DNA from: Tropicibacter sp. R16_0
GTDB lineage: Bacteria > Pseudomonadota > Alphaproteobacteria > Rhodobacterales > Rhodobacteraceae
Reading direction: 5' to 3'
DNA: 64,000 nucleotides
Assembly: GCF_017743935.1 (NCBI RefSeq)
Contig: NZ_JAGHRE010000007.1
Span: forward strand, 1-64,000
Part shown: positions 3,013 through 63,727 of the stretch, one piece after another
Layout: each line of letters starts with the position of its first letter
How positions within the stretch are numbered: position 1 is the first letter of the stretch
Notes under the pieces: generated by a model
What the model saw: the letters and a program-made list of their open reading frames with translations, nothing else
Told to the model about the DNA's origin: nothing
The model's database searches: none
Made by a program: the position numbers and the translations under genes

Positions 3013-3742
3013 GCTGAACCTGATCGGCATCGGCACCGGCAACCCAGATCACGTGACGTTTCAAGGCGCTCAAGCAATCCGCGAGGCCGATCTTATCCTG
3101 ATCCCCCGCAAGGGAGAGAACAAGGCCGATCTGGCGGGGCTGCGCGAACAGATCATCGCGCAAGTGGCGGAACAACCACCCGAGATTGCCTATTTCGACA
3201 TCCCCAAACGCCGCGCTGAAGATGGTTATCTGCGTGGCGTCGATGAGTGGCACGACGCCATCGCCCTGCGTTGGCAAAAGGCGATTGCGTCGCACCCGCA
3301 GGCCCAACAGGTGGCACTGCTGATCTGGGGCGATCCGTCACTCTATGACAGCTCACTGAGAATTGCGTCGCGATTGACCCCTTACCCAACCACCCGTGTG
3401 ATCCCGGGCATCACCGCGCTGCAAGCGCTGACGGCGGCTCATGCGATCCCCATCAACGACATCGGTGCGCCCTATGTGGTCACGACAGGGCGACGCATCC
3501 GCGATGACGGCTGGCCCGAAGGGATGGGCAAGGTGGCGGTCATGCTCGATGGCGAATGCTCGTTTCAAAGCCTTGAGATGGGCGGCTATCACATCTGGTG
3601 GGGGGCTTATGTGGGGATGAAGGAGCAAATTCTCGTATCTGGTCCTTTGGAAGACGTCGCTGCCGAGATTCTAGAAACCCGAGCCAAGGCACGGGCAGAT
3701 CACGGCTGGATCATGGATATCTACCTGCTTCAAAGACACTGA
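3005..3742 (+). CDS. cobF: Precorrin-6A synthase (deacetylating)
   Basis: The 245-residue methylase acts at C1 of precorrin-5 with loss of acetate, giving precorrin-6A. CobF is specific to the aerobic cobalamin pathway, so this gene defines the pathway type. Motifs are IGIGTGNPDHVTFQ at about residues 7-20, LLIWGDPSLYDS near 110 and IPGITALQALTAAH near 132. I chose ATG 3005, which overlaps the cobA stop by eight bases; an upstream in-frame start at 2981 would only add residues not conserved in the family. It is the last gene of the visible cob operon, followed by a large palindromic repeat. Confidence 0.93.
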   Translation: MYELNLIGIGTGNPDHVTFQGAQAIREADLILIPRKGENKADLAGLREQIIAQVAEQPPEIAYFDIPKRRAEDGYLRGVDEWHDAIALRWQKAIASHPQAQQVALLIWGDPSLYDSSLRIASRLTPYPTTRVIPGITALQALTAAHAIPINDIGAPYVVTTGRRIRDDGWPEGMGKVAVMLDGECSFQSLEMGGYHIWWGAYVGMKEQILVSGPLEDVAAEILETRAKARADHGWIMDIYLLQRH

Positions 3743-4234
3743 AGCGTTTACCGGGCGGAATCTTAAGCTTCTGCAATCCGCTCGGCTCGGACGCTCAGAC
3801 CGATTTGGTCGAGTACGCGGCAAGTCCGAACTGCGTCTCACAAGCAGTGTCATAAACACCAAAAACGGGTGCGCTCCCGCCCGTCGTCGATGCCCTCACG
3901 GGCACCTCCTCCCGTTGGGCCGGGCCGCGCTGCGCGCGGCGGTTGGCGCTCTTCTGCCCCCATCACACACGCAAAACACCATCCACTGTTTCTATAGAGC
4001 CCACCACCTGCCAAATGCGGGACCGCGCCGAGCTTTGCTCGGCGCCCGGCCCAAGGCCGTTGGCGGAGCTGACGCAGTCAGGTCTGCTCGGGCGCGGGAG
4101 CCCCCCGGCGTGTTGGGACCCGGCATTTCTCAAGCGGAAAAGGGGCCGGTGCCATACATACGGATAGACTTAGGCTACCGACCCGATCACCGCAGCGCAT
4201 CAAAGCTTTGTTTTTACTCACAAAGACGCCCTTG
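3743..4234. other. Intergenic region between convergent genes
   Basis: This 492-base stretch separates cobF (+) from the ThDP enzyme (-). It holds the composite repeat at 3873-4101 and otherwise unremarkable sequence. Open frames here are short, overlap the repeat and show no homology that I recognise. No rho-independent terminator with a T-run is obvious outside the repeat. Confidence 0.6.
3873..4101. repeat. Dispersed palindromic repeat, copy A (composite, two inverted modules)
   Basis: Left module 3873-3942 starts GCTCCCGCCCGTCGTCGATG and is the reverse complement of the type I module found alone in copies C, E and G. Right module 4021-4101 (type II) starts with a perfect hairpin GCGCCGAGC-ttt-GCTCGGCGC, continues with CCCGGCCCAAGGCC and a CTGAC-gca-GTCAG hairpin, and ends GCGGGAGC. 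The outermost GCTCCCGC and GCGGGAGC form a terminal inverted repeat. A 78-base spacer, not shared with other copies, lies between the modules. No coding capacity is visible. Confidence 0.85.
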
Positions 4235-13538: not shown

Positions 13539-15406
13539 ACCACGATCTGCACATAATGCCCCCCGAGGCGCCTTTGGCCATGCCCGAGCAGGACTTTGGC
13601 GCGGCGTTCCGTGATGCTGATGCGCCCGAGGCGCGGCAGGCTCAGGGTGTCACGGGCTGGCGGTTCATGGCCTTTGTGCCCGCGCTGATCGCCACGCTTG
13701 GGCTGTTGTGGCTGATGCAAGACTGGTTCTCGGACGAAGGGATCAGCGTGATCGAGGGCGCGCTGCTGGCGCTGATCTCGTTCAACTTCTTTTGGATCGC
13801 CTTTACCGTCTCGACCGTGTCGATCGGCTTGATCTCGTTGTCGCGCCAGGCGCCCACCTCCCGCCCGTCAAAGCCCGAACCGCTCAACGTGGCGCTGGTC
13901 ATGCCGGTCTACAACGAAGTGCCCTGGTATGTGCTGGGCAATGCGCGATCCATGCTCGAAGAGCTGCGCGCCCGAGGTGGAGTGCACCGCTATGCGATGT
14001 TCATCCTGTCCGACACCCGCGACGACGCCATCGCCGCGCAGGAGCAGGCCAGCGTCGAGGCCTTGCGCGCGTCGTTGATGCCGGGAACCGAACTTTACTA
14101 TCGCCGCCGCCCGCAGAACACCGACCGCAAGGTGGGCAATATCGCCGATTGGGTCAGCCGCTGGGGCGGTGCCTATCAGGCGATGCTGGTGTTGGACGCC
14201 GATAGCCTTATGACTGGGCGGGCGATTGCGCGGCTGACGGATGCTTTGGCACGTGATCCGGGCGCCGGACTGATTCAGAGCTTTCCGCAGCTGACCGGCG
14301 CGCAGTCGGTCTTTGCCCGAATGCAGCAGTTTGCCAATGGCGTCTACGGCGCGGCGCTCGCCGAAGGCGTGGCGCGTTGGTGCGGGCAAGAGGGGAACTA
14401 CTGGGGCCACAACGCCATCATCCGCACCGCAGCCTTTGCCAATTGTGCAGGCCTCCCAAGGCTGCGGACGTTCCGCGGCAAGGAACAGCTGATCATGAGC
14501 CACGACTTTGTCGAGGCAGGCCTGCTGCGCCGTGCGGGCTGGTCCGTGCGGTTCCTGCCACGCATCCGCGGGTCATATGAGGAAACGCCGCCCACTCTGA
14601 TCGACCATGTGTTGCGAGACCGCCGCTGGTGTCAGGGCAACCTGCAGCATCTGAACCTGCTGGGCGCGCGCGGTTTCCGCTCGATCTCGCGGTTTCATCT
14701 GTTTCATGGGGCCATTGGCTATCTGATGTCGCCGATCTGGTTTGCTCTGCTGGTGATGTGGGCATTGATCGGTCAGGGGGAAGACGCGAGCGTTCTGCAC
14801 TACTTCCGTCCCGACAACCCGCTGTTCCCCCAGTGGCCGCAGATGACCGAAGGGCGTCATGTTCTGATCATCGTGCTGATGTATGCGATGCTGCTGGTGC
14901 CCAAGCTGATGGGCGCAGCGGCCCTGCCCCTGACCGGTGCGCGCTATACTGAGTTTGGCGGTGGCTGGCGATTTACGCTGTCCTTCGTCTCCGAGGTGAT
15001 CCTGTCCGTGATCTACGCGCCGATCCTGATGGTGCAGCAGATGATTGCGGTGTTTCGTACGATGCTGGGTCTGCAAAAGGGCTGGTCGCCCCAGGCCCGC
15101 GACGGCGGAACTTATGGCCTGAAAACGCTGGCCATGTGTCACGCGTTGGAAACGATCAGTGGATTGGTTCTGACCACAGGGATCATCGCAGGGCTGGTCT
15201 CGGTCTGGCTGGCGCCAATTGCTCTCAGCTTGGCTTTGGCCATTCCACTGTCCGCCCTGAGTGGCGTTACAGCGAAGACCGCGCGCAATCTTTTGGGCTT
15301 GCGCGAGGACTTTCGCGAACCTGCCATTGCCCAGGCTGCGCGGCACTACAGAACTGAATTGAAATCGCTTCTGGACAACAACTCCTCGGCCACTCCAGCA
15401 GAGTAA
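13526..15406 (+). CDS. opgH: Glucans biosynthesis glucosyltransferase OpgH/MdoH
   Basis: The 626-residue inner-membrane glycosyltransferase family 2 protein polymerises the glucan backbone from UDP-glucose. LVMPVYNEVPW near residue 127, LVLDADSLMTGR near 221, SHDFVEAGLLRRAGW near 326 and the RRWCQGNLQHLNLL (Q-x-x-R/W-type) motif near 369 are typical. Two N-terminal and several C-terminal membrane segments are visible. It is shorter than the roughly 850-residue enterobacterial protein, as expected for alphaproteobacterial forms. The start may be GTG 13526, inside opgG, or ATG 13556. It is the last gene of the operon, followed by repeat copy B. Confidence 0.93.
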   Translation: MDRLNHDLHIMPPEAPLAMPEQDFGAAFRDADAPEARQAQGVTGWRFMAFVPALIATLGLLWLMQDWFSDEGISVIEGALLALISFNFFWIAFTVSTVSIGLISLSRQAPTSRPSKPEPLNVALVMPVYNEVPWYVLGNARSMLEELRARGGVHRYAMFILSDTRDDAIAAQEQASVEALRASLMPGTELYYRRRPQNTDRKVGNIADWVSRWGGAYQAMLVLDADSLMTGRAIARLTDALARDPGAGLIQSFPQLTGAQSVFARMQQFANGVYGAALAEGVARWCGQEGNYWGHNAIIRTAAFANCAGLPRLRTFRGKEQLIMSHDFVEAGLLRRAGWSVRFLPRIRGSYEETPPTLIDHVLRDRRWCQGNLQHLNLLGARGFRSISRFHLFHGAIGYLMSPIWFALLVMWALIGQGEDASVLHYFRPDNPLFPQWPQMTEGRHVLIIVLMYAMLLVPKLMGAAALPLTGARYTEFGGGWRFTLSFVSEVILSVIYAPILMVQQMIAVFRTMLGLQKGWSPQARDGGTYGLKTLAMCHALETISGLVLTTGIIAGLVSVWLAPIALSLALAIPLSALSGVTAKTARNLLGLREDFREPAIAQAARHYRTELKSLLDNNSSATPAE

Positions 15407-15445
15407 TCTCCGAACGGTGTCGACCTGTGTTGGCTGTTCGGGGGC

Positions 15446-15654
15446 GCTCCCGCCCGTCGGTCGTGCATCATAGATGCCCTCCTCCCGTTGGGCCGGGCGC
15501 CGGGCTACGCCCGGCGGTTTGCGATTGGCGCCAGGCAATTCAATCAAAGACGAAGCATTCACCACAGGCGCAACCGCGCCGAGCGACGAGCGAGGCGCCC
15601 GGCCCAAGGCCGTTAGCGGGGCTGACGCAGTCAGGTCTGCTCGGGCGCGGGAGC
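15446..15654. repeat. Dispersed palindromic repeat, copy B (composite)
   Basis: Left module 15446-15517 is type I in reverse orientation, with a perfect hairpin (GCCGGGC arms) and the shared CCTCCCGTTGGGCCGGGCG core. Right module 15573-15654 is type II, with GCGCC/GGCGC outer arms, CCCGGCCCAAGGCC, CTGAC-gca-GTCAG and terminal GCGGGAGC. A 55-base spacer separates them. It lies between the convergent opgH and esterase genes and has the same order of modules as copy A. Confidence 0.85.
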
Positions 15655-15677
15655 ACCCCCTAGCCCAGACACGCCTC

Positions 15678-25299: not shown

Positions 25300-25341
25300 C
25301 CCCCTCGCCGTGATCGATACCATACAAGGGCAGCGTTATGC

Positions 25342-25421
25342 GGTGCCGCGCCGCGCGCAGCGCGGCGCCCGGCCCAACGGGAGGAGACGCCCCGACAGGG
25401 GTGCCGACGACGGGCGGGAGC
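25342..25421. repeat. Dispersed palindromic repeat, copy C (single type I module)
   Basis: It has a perfect hairpin GCGCCGCGC-gca-GCGCGGCGC, then the CCCGGCCCAACGGGAGGAG core, a GCCCC-gaca-GGGG(T) hairpin and terminal GACGGGCGGGAGC. It lies between the convergent selD and selU genes. It is in the opposite orientation to the left modules of copies A, B and D. Confidence 0.85.
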
Positions 25422-25449
25422 CCCCCGAGCCATCACGCGTCGCAAAGCA

Positions 25450-27864: not shown

Positions 27865-27971
27865 GCCCGCACTCTAAGGTTTGTGAAAAGGGAATTACAA
27901 CATGGATTGACGACGTGTTCCGCCTCATTCTCAAACCGCCGTCGTGCAAGTCGCGTGTACATGACCCGGAA

Positions 27972-28160
27972 GCTCTCCCGCCCGTCGTCGATGCCCTCAC
28001 GGGCACCTCCTCCCGTTGGGCCGGGCCTCGCTACGCTCGGCGGGCGGCCACAGCGGCGAAACAGATGCCCCAAACGGGACCGCGCCGAGCCGTAGGCGAG
28101 GCGCCCGGCCCAAGGCCGCCAGCGGTGCCGACGAAGTCGGGATCGTGCGGGCGCGGGAGC
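27972..28160. repeat. Dispersed palindromic repeat, copy D (composite)
   Basis: Left module 27972-28045 is type I in reverse orientation and is nearly identical to copy A over CCCGCCCGTCGTCGATGCCC and the following core. Right module 28078-28160 is type II, with GCGCC-GA-GCC-gta-GGC-GA-GGCGC and a CCGAC-gaa-GTCGG hairpin, ending GCGGGAGC. The spacer is only 32 bases. Compared with copies A and B the inner hairpin differs by a compensatory T-A to C-G pair. Confidence 0.85.
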
Positions 28161-28211
28161 GCGCCGTTCACACCAAAAAGCTGCAAGGCCTGTGGAAAAG
28201 AAACGCCTGAC

Positions 28212-31813: not shown

Positions 31814-32151
31814 TCGAATATTGGCACAACCCACGCTGTTCCAAATCCCGTCAGGGGTTGGCTTTGCTCGAAGAGAAGGGCGCAGAACTCACTGTGCGCA
31901 AGTACCTCGAAGACGCGCCGTCTTTGGATGAGTTGCGTGCTACGCAAGCCGCGCTTGGCGTCGCTGCGATTGAGATGATGCGGACCGGTGAAAAGATGTT
32001 CAAGGAGTTGGGCCTCAGCAAGGACGCCGACGATGCGACCCTGTTGCAAGCGATGGCGGACCACCCGATCCTGATCGAGCGTCCGTTGGGCAAAACTGGC
32101 AACAAGGCCGTGATTGGTCGCCCGCCCGAGAACCTGCTCGACCTGCTCTAA
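31810..32151 (+). CDS. arsC: Arsenate reductase ArsC-family protein (thioredoxin fold)
   Basis: The 113-residue protein has the glutaredoxin-dependent ArsC fold: [20 protein letters not shown] places the reactive Cys at residue 10. [20 protein letters not shown] near residues 88-107 carries the conserved arginines that bind arsenate. GTG 31810 was chosen because it overlaps the pyrD stop (GTGA) and because family similarity starts there; TTG 31804 is an alternative. No arsR, arsB or acr3 genes are near, so arsenate reduction is the family activity rather than a proven role. Confidence 0.85.
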
Positions 32152-32193
32152 ACCCTGCGCGGCCTGTCGGCCTTGCGTCCTGCGGACGGCGGG

Positions 32194-32280
32194 GGGCCAG
32201 GCTCATGCGGGCTTTGCCCGCATGAGCCTGGCCCAACGGGAGGAGGTGTTTCGCAAGAAACATCGACGACGGGCGGGAGC
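32194..32280. repeat. Dispersed palindromic repeat, copy E (single type I module)
   Basis: The first stem is a perfect 19-pair inverted repeat at 32194-32212 and 32216-32234 (GGGCCAGGCTC arms) with a three-base loop. Its sequence is unlike the GCGCC-type stem of other copies, yet it occupies the same place. CCCAACGGGAGGAGG follows, then TGTTTC-gcaa-GAAACA in place of TGCCCC-gcaa-GGGGCA, then CATCGACGACGGGCGGGAGC. It lies between convergent arsC-like and MATE genes. Confidence 0.85.
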
Positions 32281-32285
32281 GCTCC

Positions 32286-33596
32286 CTAGCTTGCGACTTG
32301 CGCCTCGAGCCTGGGATAGCGCACCCACATGGTCAAGCCACGCGCCACATTCAGCACCATGAGAGCCGCCCACAGGCCGTGGTTGCCATAGATGGGCACC
32401 AGCACGACCAAGGCCACCACATAGGCCGCCACGGATTGGATCATCGCGATCCGCATATCGCGGGTCCAGGTGCCGCCGATGTAGATGCCATCGAACATCC
32501 AGCTGGCCACGCCCAAAACCGGCGCCAGCGCCGCCCAGAACAGGAAATCGCGCCCGACCTCCCGCACCTCTGGCGAGGTTGCCATCAAGTCGATGATCGC
32601 AGGCCCTGCCAACCAGAAGACAAGCCCCAATCCAACCGCTCCGCCCACACCCCATTGCGAGGCAACAACAGCCGCGCGACGCACCTGTGCCCGATCTTTT
32701 GCGCCAACGGCACCGCCCACCAAGGCCTCTGCCGAAAAGGCAAAGCCATCGAGTGCAAAGGCAGTCACCTCCAGAAACTGCAAAAGGATCTGGTTGGCCG
32801 CCAGGTTCACGTCACCCAGATCCGAGCCGATGAACAGGAACGTTGTGAATGATCCCGTCAGCAGAACCGACCGCACCATGATATCCGCATTCACGGCCAT
32901 CATCCGGCGCAAGCGCGCAGGGTCGAAGATCCGCGCCCAATTGCGCCACTGGTCGCCCGCAAAGGCATCGCGGCACAGCCACAGACCAAGCGCCAACCCA
33001 GTCCATTCAGCGATCAGCGTCGCTATGGCCACCCCCTCGACGCCCCAGCCCAGCCCCAGCACGAACCATAGGTCCAACACGATGTTGAGCCCGTTCATCC
33101 ACAGTTGCAGGACAAAGACGCCTCGCGTGCGCTCGACCGCGATCAGCCAGCCGGTGATGGCGTAAAGTGCGATGGTCGCCGGTGCGCCCCAGATGCGGAT
33201 CGACAAGTAGTCGAGTGCCAATCCCTCAACCTCGGCACTGGCGGGTGCCAGCCAGAACGCCCCTGCAAACAGTGCGGTCTGCCCAAGAAGGAACAACACC
33301 CCGCCCGCAAGTCCCAAAAGCAGGCCGCGCATGAGCAATGCGCCGGTCTCGGCCACATCGCCTGCGCCGCGGGCTTGGGCGGCCAAGCCGGTCGTTCCCA
33401 TCCGCAGAAAGCCAAAGATCCAATAAAGCGCGGACAGGATCACAGCGCCGATCCCAACGGCCCCGATGGGCGCTGCCGCCCCCATCTGCCCCACAACGCC
33501 CGTATCCACCGCGCCCAGAATGGGTACGGTGGCATTTGAAATCACAATGGGGATGGCGATGTTCAGAACCCGCCGATGGGTGATCTGATCAGTCAC
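32286..33596 (-). CDS. MATE family efflux transporter (DinF-like)
   Basis: The 436-residue protein has about twelve membrane helices in two MATE bundles. The first begins LNIAIPIVISNATVPILGAV followed by DTGVVGQMG, and FGFLRMGTTGLAAQARGAGD resembles DinF. The second half contains DGFAFSAEALVGGAVGAKDR. MATE proteins export cationic drugs or metabolites with Na+ or H+. The ATG at 33596 is four bases after the stop of the thioesterase gene on the same strand, so these probably form one operon. Confidence 0.9.
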   Translation of the reverse strand: MTDQITHRRVLNIAIPIVISNATVPILGAVDTGVVGQMGAAAPIGAVGIGAVILSALYWIFGFLRMGTTGLAAQARGAGDVAETGALLMRGLLLGLAGGVLFLLGQTALFAGAFWLAPASAEVEGLALDYLSIRIWGAPATIALYAITGWLIAVERTRGVFVLQLWMNGLNIVLDLWFVLGLGWGVEGVAIATLIAEWTGLALGLWLCRDAFAGDQWRNWARIFDPARLRRMMAVNADIMVRSVLLTGSFTTFLFIGSDLGDVNLAANQILLQFLEVTAFALDGFAFSAEALVGGAVGAKDRAQVRRAAVVASQWGVGGAVGLGLVFWLAGPAIIDLMATSPEVREVGRDFLFWAALAPVLGVASWMFDGIYIGGTWTRDMRIAMIQSVAAYVVALVVLVPIYGNHGLWAALMVLNVARGLTMWVRYPRLEAQVAS

Positions 33597-60110: not shown

Positions 60111-60117
60111 CACAGGC

Positions 60118-60199
60118 GACCGCGCCGGACCGACAGGCCCGGCGCCCGGCCCAACGCTTCTGGGGGCGCATCTCTGATGCGTGCCCAAGGGGCGGGAGT
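60118..60199. repeat. Dispersed palindromic repeat, copy F (degenerate single module)
   Basis: It has GCGCCGG-a-CC-gaca-GG-c-CCGGCGC as its first hairpin and the CCCGGCCCAAC core, then a diverged second part with GGGCGCAT and ATGCGTGCCC, ending GGGGCGGGAG. It lies between the tandem genes prpE and amidase and is the most diverged copy. Confidence 0.75.
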
Positions 60200-60318
60200 T
60201 CCCCCGTCCCGACACCACATTTCCTGATCCGCAAACCACCGAAAAATGACGCTGCGGCGCCCATGGTTTCGCTTGCCTTCTCCTGACCCGCGCCTAACCT
60301 GCGAGCGGGAGATTTTTC

Positions 60319-63395: not shown

Positions 63396-63478
63396 GGTAC
63401 CGCGCCGAGCCGCTAGGCGAGGCGCCCGGCCCAACGGGAGGAGGTGCCCCGCAAGGGGCATCGACGACGGGCGGGAGC
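63396..63478. repeat. Dispersed palindromic repeat, copy G (single type I module)
   Basis: It has GCGCC-GA-GCC-gcta-GGC-GA-GGCGC, the CCCGGCCCAACGGGAGGAGG core, TGCCCC-gcaa-GGGGCA and CATCGACGACGGGCGGGAGC. It is the most complete single copy and can serve as the reference type I module. It lies between convergent genes. Confidence 0.85.
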
Positions 63479-63727
63479 CTTTCGCCCCGTCCGTAAGATC
63501 AGATCGGATCATCAGATGAAAAACGAAACCCGTTTTGTGCAGCCGGACCTCGACAAATTGCCCTGTCACCGGCAGCGGCAACAGGGCCGATGGTGCTGAA
63601 ACACTCAGTCAGGCCGCTTTACGTGCGAGCGCGAAACCAATCGCGCCCGCGTTTGCGTACCAATGCAAACTCTTGAGAAACACGACACGAACAAAGCACT
63701 CACAACTTGTCGTGCATCGCTACACCC

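Follow-up and report, generated by a model that had tools for sequence, protein, structure and literature searches.

A Modular Palindromic Repeat Family Behind Genes in Rhodobacteraceae, with a One-Strand Fold and Conserved Positions

Introduction

The stretch of DNA analysed here (64,000 nt of the Tropicibacter sp. R16_0 genome, hereafter the window) carries seven palindromic intergenic elements, A to G, and raises the question of whether such repeats are selfish passengers or act at the ends of the genes behind which they lie. Dispersed palindromes are usually classed as selfish REPs or MITEs. REPs are short palindromes of about 20–40 nt with a fixed 5′ tetranucleotide, and MITEs are short, dispersed elements with terminal inverted repeats and a target-site duplication. 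The first-pass annotation of the window had likened the elements to BIME/REP or MITE organisation and suggested mobility, and it overlooked the main pattern, which is their placement at convergent gene ends.

Results

Module Anatomy of the Window Elements

The seven copies lie where the first-pass annotation had placed them, and each contains a type I module according to R1, a covariance model built from 36 type I copies of the host genome. The two kinds of module that it had described were likewise recovered, with type II modules located in A, B and D. On the forward strand, the type I consensus consists, in order, of hairpin 1, CCCGGCCC, AAC, GGGAGGAGG, hairpin 2, CGACGACGGGCGGGAG and a tail of NNCCCC, and in the type II module a similar hairpin 1 and a CCCGGCCCAA core are followed by GGCCG, a long second hairpin and CGGGCGCGGGAG. 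The modules are 85–93 nt in length with two hairpins each, and thus exceed the short palindrome of a REP.

Composite A has a type I module on the minus strand as its left half (3866..3948; R1 80.7 bits) and a type II module on the plus strand as its right half (4019..4108; core match, R1 25.5 bits), flanked by convergent genes with stops at 3742 (+) and 4235 (−). Composite B is built alike, with type I at 15439..15523 (−; R1 72.5 bits) and type II at 15573..15665 (+; type II core match), and its convergent neighbours terminate at 15406 (+) and 15678 (−). Composite D, with type I at 27967..28049 (−; R1 81.9 bits) and type II at 28081..28170 (+; type II core match), is flanked by two minus-strand genes (stop 28262, start 27864) and recurs as a composite in congeners. 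The composite nature of A, B and D therefore stands as first described, but their spacer is not unique throughout: a spacer core, TTGTGGCGAAACAGATGCCCCAAGCGG (≤7 mismatches), is shared by 9 of the 26 type II contexts, D among them (against 3 of 1000 random 90-mers), and is absent from A and B.

C, E, F and G had all been taken as single type I-like modules, which holds for C (25344..25428, +; R1 65.2 bits; the block recurring in congeners is 25332-25430) and G (63404..63485, +; R1 72.4 bits). E is instead a composite with a third kind of partner, an inverted type III module at 32154..32202 (−) that has its central palindrome in common with the type I module, followed by type I at 32203..32287 (+; R1 75.0 bits). 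The 133-nt block 32154-32286 is found dozens of times in three congeners, and since the neighbouring genes stop at 32151 (+) and 32286 (−), E occupies the whole gap. F is a divergent type I relative (60114..60206, +) with a weak R1 score of 43.4 bits and no GGGAGGAGG block, and its orthologue is present in all three congeners. A domain scan of ten genes adjoining A–E revealed no transposase, and ordinary enzyme, transporter or repair-type domains were obtained.

With strict cores at most 200 nt apart, 25 paired sites were obtained (21 I/II, three I/I and one II/II), all of them facing outward, and type I stood alone at 115 sites and type II at three. Under looser detection, 52 of 115 classed type I modules are paired with type II (up to two mismatches accepted), eight have another CTCCCGC-like end upstream, 21 have the type III partner with its long central palindrome common with type I (E among them), 15 are singles whose left side is GCGTTCTGCGGTG-like, and the remaining 19 are unclassed. 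The composites carry terminal inverted repeats near CGGGGGYGCTCCCGC/GCGGGAGCACCCCCG, a consensus drawn by eye from 23 composites in 24 entries, one being read from both strands.

Extent and Distribution of the Family

The seven elements are members of a genome-wide family. Searched over the whole 5.24 Mb host genome (37 contigs), the type I core CCCGGCCCAACGGGAG (≤1 mismatch) occurs 57 + 59 times and the type II core CCCGGCCCAAGGCC (exact) 14 + 12 times, with 0 + 1 in the reversed-letter control of each, while R1 gives at least 143 matches at E 0.01 among 150 scored candidates. Merging R1 matches with type II cores yields about 168 modules at 143 sites, the R1 part being a lower bound. The wider search that the first-pass annotation had proposed thus carries the family beyond this locus, into the rest of the host genome and into other Rhodobacteraceae. 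A variant with a GCATGCCCTGACGGGCCC hairpin and a GTTGGG core was seen by eye in two convergent gaps of the host genome (L276:7576-7693 and L277:18345-18460); R1 misses it, so the family is larger than the count.

Across 61 genomes (host included), R1 matched 10 at E 0.001, with zero matches among the 24 genomes from other families. At E 1e-4, at least 52 of 394 Rhodobacteraceae genomes contain a match, a lower bound obtained with 11 candidates scored in each genome. The distribution in the family is therefore patchy, and as the majority of genomes gave no copy, the element is not essential to the lineage. Among the matches listed in a pattern scan of named genomes (at least 99 stretches), Ruegeria, Phaeobacter, Leisingera, Tritonibacter, Tropicimonas, Falsiruegeria, Shimia and other Rhodobacteraceae were represented, including one strain of Ruegeria pomeroyi and several of Leisingera, as well as one MAG named just Alphaproteobacteria. 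A Longimicrobiales match (L252) was rejected as chance, lying within a predicted gene with a P-loop-coding look by eye, and plasmid records searched with one composite query (copy A) gave no match.

The family does not correspond to a known RNA family in Rfam 15: the window has no match above the gathering cut-off, and copy A gave two sub-threshold matches with E of 1.3 and 2.1. No description of the family was found in the literature searched. The main text of the Ruegeria pomeroyi small-RNA paper (PMC4809877) makes no mention of palindromes, terminators, stem-loops, paralogs or multiple copies, and the part of PMC2680597 considered here holds nothing bearing on the family. A separate GC-rich gene-end repeat, CCTCCGGCGGGGTATATTT or CCCCCGGAGTATTT, was noticed by eye in the host and another genus (L284:690-768; L300 and L302 near 1410-1450) and is possibly a second widespread roseobacter 3′-end repeat.

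Placement at Gene Ends

The elements lie directly 3′ of genes, with a strong preference for convergent pairs. Gene calls came from a simple hexamer caller, so that starts are rough and stops better. Among the 117 of 143 host sites for which sequence was read, 80 are convergent, 33 tandem and one divergent, one is inside a called gene and two are at an edge. The nearest stop codon is at a median of 19 nt from the modelled element (113 sites), and for tandem pairs the distance to the next called start has a median of 119 nt and never falls below 48 nt. Element-free gaps of ≥20 nt in the same fetched loci number 14 convergent, 113 tandem and 71 divergent, counts that come from loci centred on elements and do not represent a genome-wide rate. 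In 400 kb free of R1 matches, gaps of ≥100 nt were 14 convergent (two of which contain the variant element by eye), 87 tandem and 48 divergent, a sample picked with the R1 match list known and therefore serving only as an element-poor comparison. Within the window, all four called convergent gaps longer than 130 nt are occupied (A, B, C and E) and none of the five shorter ones. In other genomes, 96 of 109 junctions (three of the 109 congeneric) could be classed, as 56 convergent, 35 tandem and five divergent, with 13 at an edge.

Single modules in tandem gene pairs face either way relative to the upstream gene (four sense, six antisense), which is not predicted by a cis-acting RNA role. Counted by contig strand, element-bearing tandem pairs were 25 minus and eight plus, perhaps through contig orientation.

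Bidirectional intrinsic terminators consist of a GC-rich hairpin with a U-tract between convergent genes. The roseobacter repeat resembles them as a GC-rich hairpin between convergent genes, near both stop codons, but differs in its multi-hairpin modules, its conserved sequence and mismatches, and the lack of a U-tract: the module tail beyond GGGAG is mostly NNCCCC-like, with no T-run. The idea that the elements replace canonical terminators was rejected, as the U-tract frequency tests showed no difference. U-tract terminators were called at 46 of 160 element-bearing convergent-gap ends versus 23 of 68 in the comparison (P = 0.53), a weak test in which the reversed-letter control fires at 18 of 80. 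Under a stricter U-tract rule the counts were 29/160 versus 9/28 for convergent-gap ends and 9/33 versus 12/113 for tandem pairs, element-bearing first.

Fold and Strand Specificity

The forward-strand module folds into hairpin 1, a closing stem (CCC-GCCC/GGGC-GGG), an AACG bulge, a G-C pair, tandem sheared G.A pairs (GGAG/CGAC), a variable hairpin 2 and the tail GGGAG-NN-CCCC. An alignment of 32 copies drawn from six other genera, which was fitted to the model and hence leans towards it, gave 126 doubly changed cells versus 35.3 in shuffled alignments (0 of 500 shuffles as high), a covariation score of 0.468 versus 0.132 shuffled and ≤0.114 in slid versions, and 87.4% of cells paired versus 35.8–46.9% in slid versions. 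A sequence-only alignment of 36 host copies, with some columns misaligned, scored 0.185 versus 0.107, again with 0 of 500 shuffles as high. Single-sequence folding z-scores were modest, ranging from −0.73 to −4.0 in the nine forward window modules.

The fold is restricted to one strand. The inner loop GGAG/CGAC forms tandem G.A and A.G in 26 of the 32 copies and is fully Watson-Crick in five of the other six. G.T pairs outnumber A.C pairs by 31 to 2 and 139 to 7. When stems were located with a strand-symmetric finder, in which G.T and A.C are scored equally, the ratio for type I was 19 to 1 in the host, 3 to 0 in the six genera and 22 to 3 at named loci (some of them congeners), and for type II it was 31 to 0 in the host and 8 to 0 in five sequences elsewhere; alignment A2 gave 45 to 18 with this finder. 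Comparison of the two strands also showed the forward one to be more stable than its complement in 66 of the 92 type I modules and in 24 of the 26 type II modules. The excess of G.T over A.C, together with the G.A/Watson-Crick exchange, indicates an RNA-like constraint on one single strand, so the constrained molecule is RNA or single-stranded DNA; as the modules of composites face outward, each DNA strand has one module in the folding sense.

These results bear on two other explanations. The motif CCUCCUCCC is that of CcsR/cuckoo-type small RNAs, and the type I GGGAGGAGG block might serve as a sponge or target for small RNAs carrying it. The exact complement is present in 45 of 102 host copies, yet it is kept in just 4 of 32 other-genus copies, a count on which the idea was dropped, and the GGGAGGAGG block is accounted for by the tandem G.A stem; we consider this explanation very improbable. 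Alternatively, the palindrome might be a DNA-level site, recognised by gyrase, a nucleoid protein or a comparable factor at the supercoils of convergent transcription. Such a site would fit the convergent preference, the lack of a clear orientation preference relative to tandem genes and the interaction of REPs in other bacteria with gyrase, IHF and DNA polymerase I, as described in a section of PMC5082802. However, a double-stranded or cruciform role is strand-symmetric, which disagrees with the 19 to 1 and 31 to 0 ratios, and the mismatches are G.A, not T.C, and we regard a DNA-level role as unlikely.

Conservation of Sites Across Species

The same junctions are occupied in relatives. The window is syntenic with three congeners (G001–G003) at about 90%, 87% and 83% identity, and all 21 intervals (seven window intervals in each of three congeners) hold a family member, although the content of a site varies. 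In G001 and G002 the A interval measures 2.3 kb and includes other DNA; at D, the window and G003 carry the composite, G002 has only the type II module and G001 has a compact composite; and at the G site of G001 the core mark and inspection by eye indicate a type II-like module in reversed orientation. Over the seven orthologous sites and all species pairs, 181 pairs have changed; taking G.A as a pair, 150 of them are paired in both species, 30 are broken in one species and one is unpaired in both.

Mapping 35 congener element sites (three Falsiruegeria loci included) to the host gave 28 clean cases, 27 of them at an occupied junction (two via whole-genome look-up and three via protein matches) and one empty; the host library is rich in element loci and favours occupied sites, a bias tested by the two whole-genome look-ups, and the 35 sites overlap, some host sites being reached from two congeners and a few being window sites. 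At three further sites (L077, L078 and one in L181) both species have an element but the host carries additional DNA between its flanks, two matched on one side only and two were unmapped. The empty site (L243 vs L279), a between-species comparison at an operon junction, demonstrates that elements can be gained or lost, and no target duplication was seen at it.

In the closest congener, the orthologue is at least as near as any host paralogue in 11 of 14 cases, whereas in the two other congeners some host paralogue is nearer than the orthologue in 10 of 10, suggesting that modules are exchanged or converge while the sites persist. Eight junctions in other genera, corresponding to seven host sites, have both flanking proteins (>45% identity) in common with a host element junction. 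L028/L078 was ruled out as a module swap at one junction, because the left genes differ, and the two were counted apart.

Transposase and Mobility Evidence

The likeness to BIME/REP or MITE organisation proposed in the first-pass annotation stands in that the family is dispersed and modular with outward, BIME-like pairs. As the main account, mobility was not supported: no Y1/RAYT transposase (PF01797) was found in the host or three congeners, target-site duplications were not found and sites are kept across species. PF01797 is present in 5 of 14 control genomes, and a search of 18 genomes gave Y1 genes in four. Of these Y1 proteins, the four that were scanned match IS200/IS605 above the cut-off, and three also gave a sub-threshold match to the REP transposase model. 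In 23 composites there was no direct-repeat excess over shuffled pairs. The repeat is thus MITE-like in its shortness, dispersal and the terminal inverted repeats of composites, but differs from MITEs in that neither target-site duplication nor matching transposase was found. The layout of genes between nearby outward modules gave no candidate for an autonomous element.

In G018 (L302, L303 and L300), shortened IS200/IS605 transposase genes that lack the central part of the Y1 domain adjoin family elements. R1 matches adjoin the Y1 genes in L302 and L300, and in L303 at E 0.29. The unit common to L302 and L303 (L302 1475-1995) leaves out the flanking modules, while that common to L302 and L300 begins at L302 1407, within hairpin 1 of one module. 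A RAYT flanked by elements was rejected here, the scanned proteins being shortened IS200/IS605 transposases, though some association with the family in G018 may still exist.

The repeat might nevertheless be a REP/BIME-like selfish element, copied as folded single-stranded DNA in trans by a lost or unrecognised transposase, tolerated only behind genes and mostly old. The many copies, outward inverted pairs and terminal inverted repeats, the patchy distribution, the one empty operon junction and the exchange of module types all agree with this explanation, and a one-strand fold is compatible with single-stranded DNA. Against it stand the failure to find PF01797 in the host and congeners although 5 of 14 control genomes were positive, the identity of the scanned Y1 proteins as IS200/IS605 with none above the REP transposase cut-off, and the lack of target duplication; moreover, the pairing kept at old shared sites and the occupancy of 27 of 28 sites suggest that selection has acted on more than mobility. 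We therefore consider a purely selfish repeat possible, though we lean against it.

Discussion

Compensatory change at old shared sites, constraint on one strand and placement at convergent gene ends together point to a function as RNA at the 3′ end. The reading that we favour, to which we give about even chances, is a bidirectional 3′-end RNA element, either a terminator or a barrier to 3′ trimming, of REP-like origin. RNA polymerase passing the stop codon would produce a transcript that folds at its 3′ end, and the folded end may promote or mark transcript ending; as there is no U-tract, this would probably involve Rho or a block of 3′–5′ exonucleases. The element would keep converging transcripts apart, and the outward composite pair would supply each of the two transcripts with one module in the folding sense. 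The family may once have spread in a REP-like manner, with modules at a site still exchanged and the site kept. Weighing against a 3′-end role are the U-tract comparisons, which showed no difference, the single modules of tandem pairs that face either way, the modest single-sequence folding scores and the many Rhodobacteraceae genomes that gave no copy. Whichever reading is right, a REP-like origin is likely. Rather unlikely, in our view, is the more specific proposal that the outward modules form a new class of bidirectional, U-tract-free 3′-end RNAs, in which each of two converging transcripts has a sense-strand 3′ structure of its own and a cellular factor reads the GGCCCAAC/GCGGGAG core and the tandem G.A stem, with sites fixed and module types swapped.

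The closest in kind are Br-REP1 and Br-REP2 of Bradyrhizobium, which the relevant section of PMC5082802 describes as palindromic repeats of 3′-UTRs at about 200 sites with three stem-loops, Br-REP1 being first found between convergent genes and Br-REP abundance varying strongly among related alphaproteobacteria. The roseobacter repeat is alike in its 3′-UTR palindromes, convergent placement and patchy abundance, and differs in consensus sequence and family; its strand-specific fold, outward two-module design and conservation of position are features that the same section does not report for Br-REP. Compared with REP/BIME elements with a RAYT, as presented in the part of PMC2817692 used here, where the tabulated REPs are short units mostly starting with GTAG or GTGG, it is alike in copy number (over 100), in its imperfect palindromes that form inverted pairs and in its intergenic location, but differs in its longer, two-hairpin modules, the failure to find a RAYT in the host and congeners and the positions kept between species.

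The question of whether palindromic repeats act at gene ends is directly testable in the roseobacters that carry this family, and the family would add a new annotation class to Rhodobacteraceae genomes.
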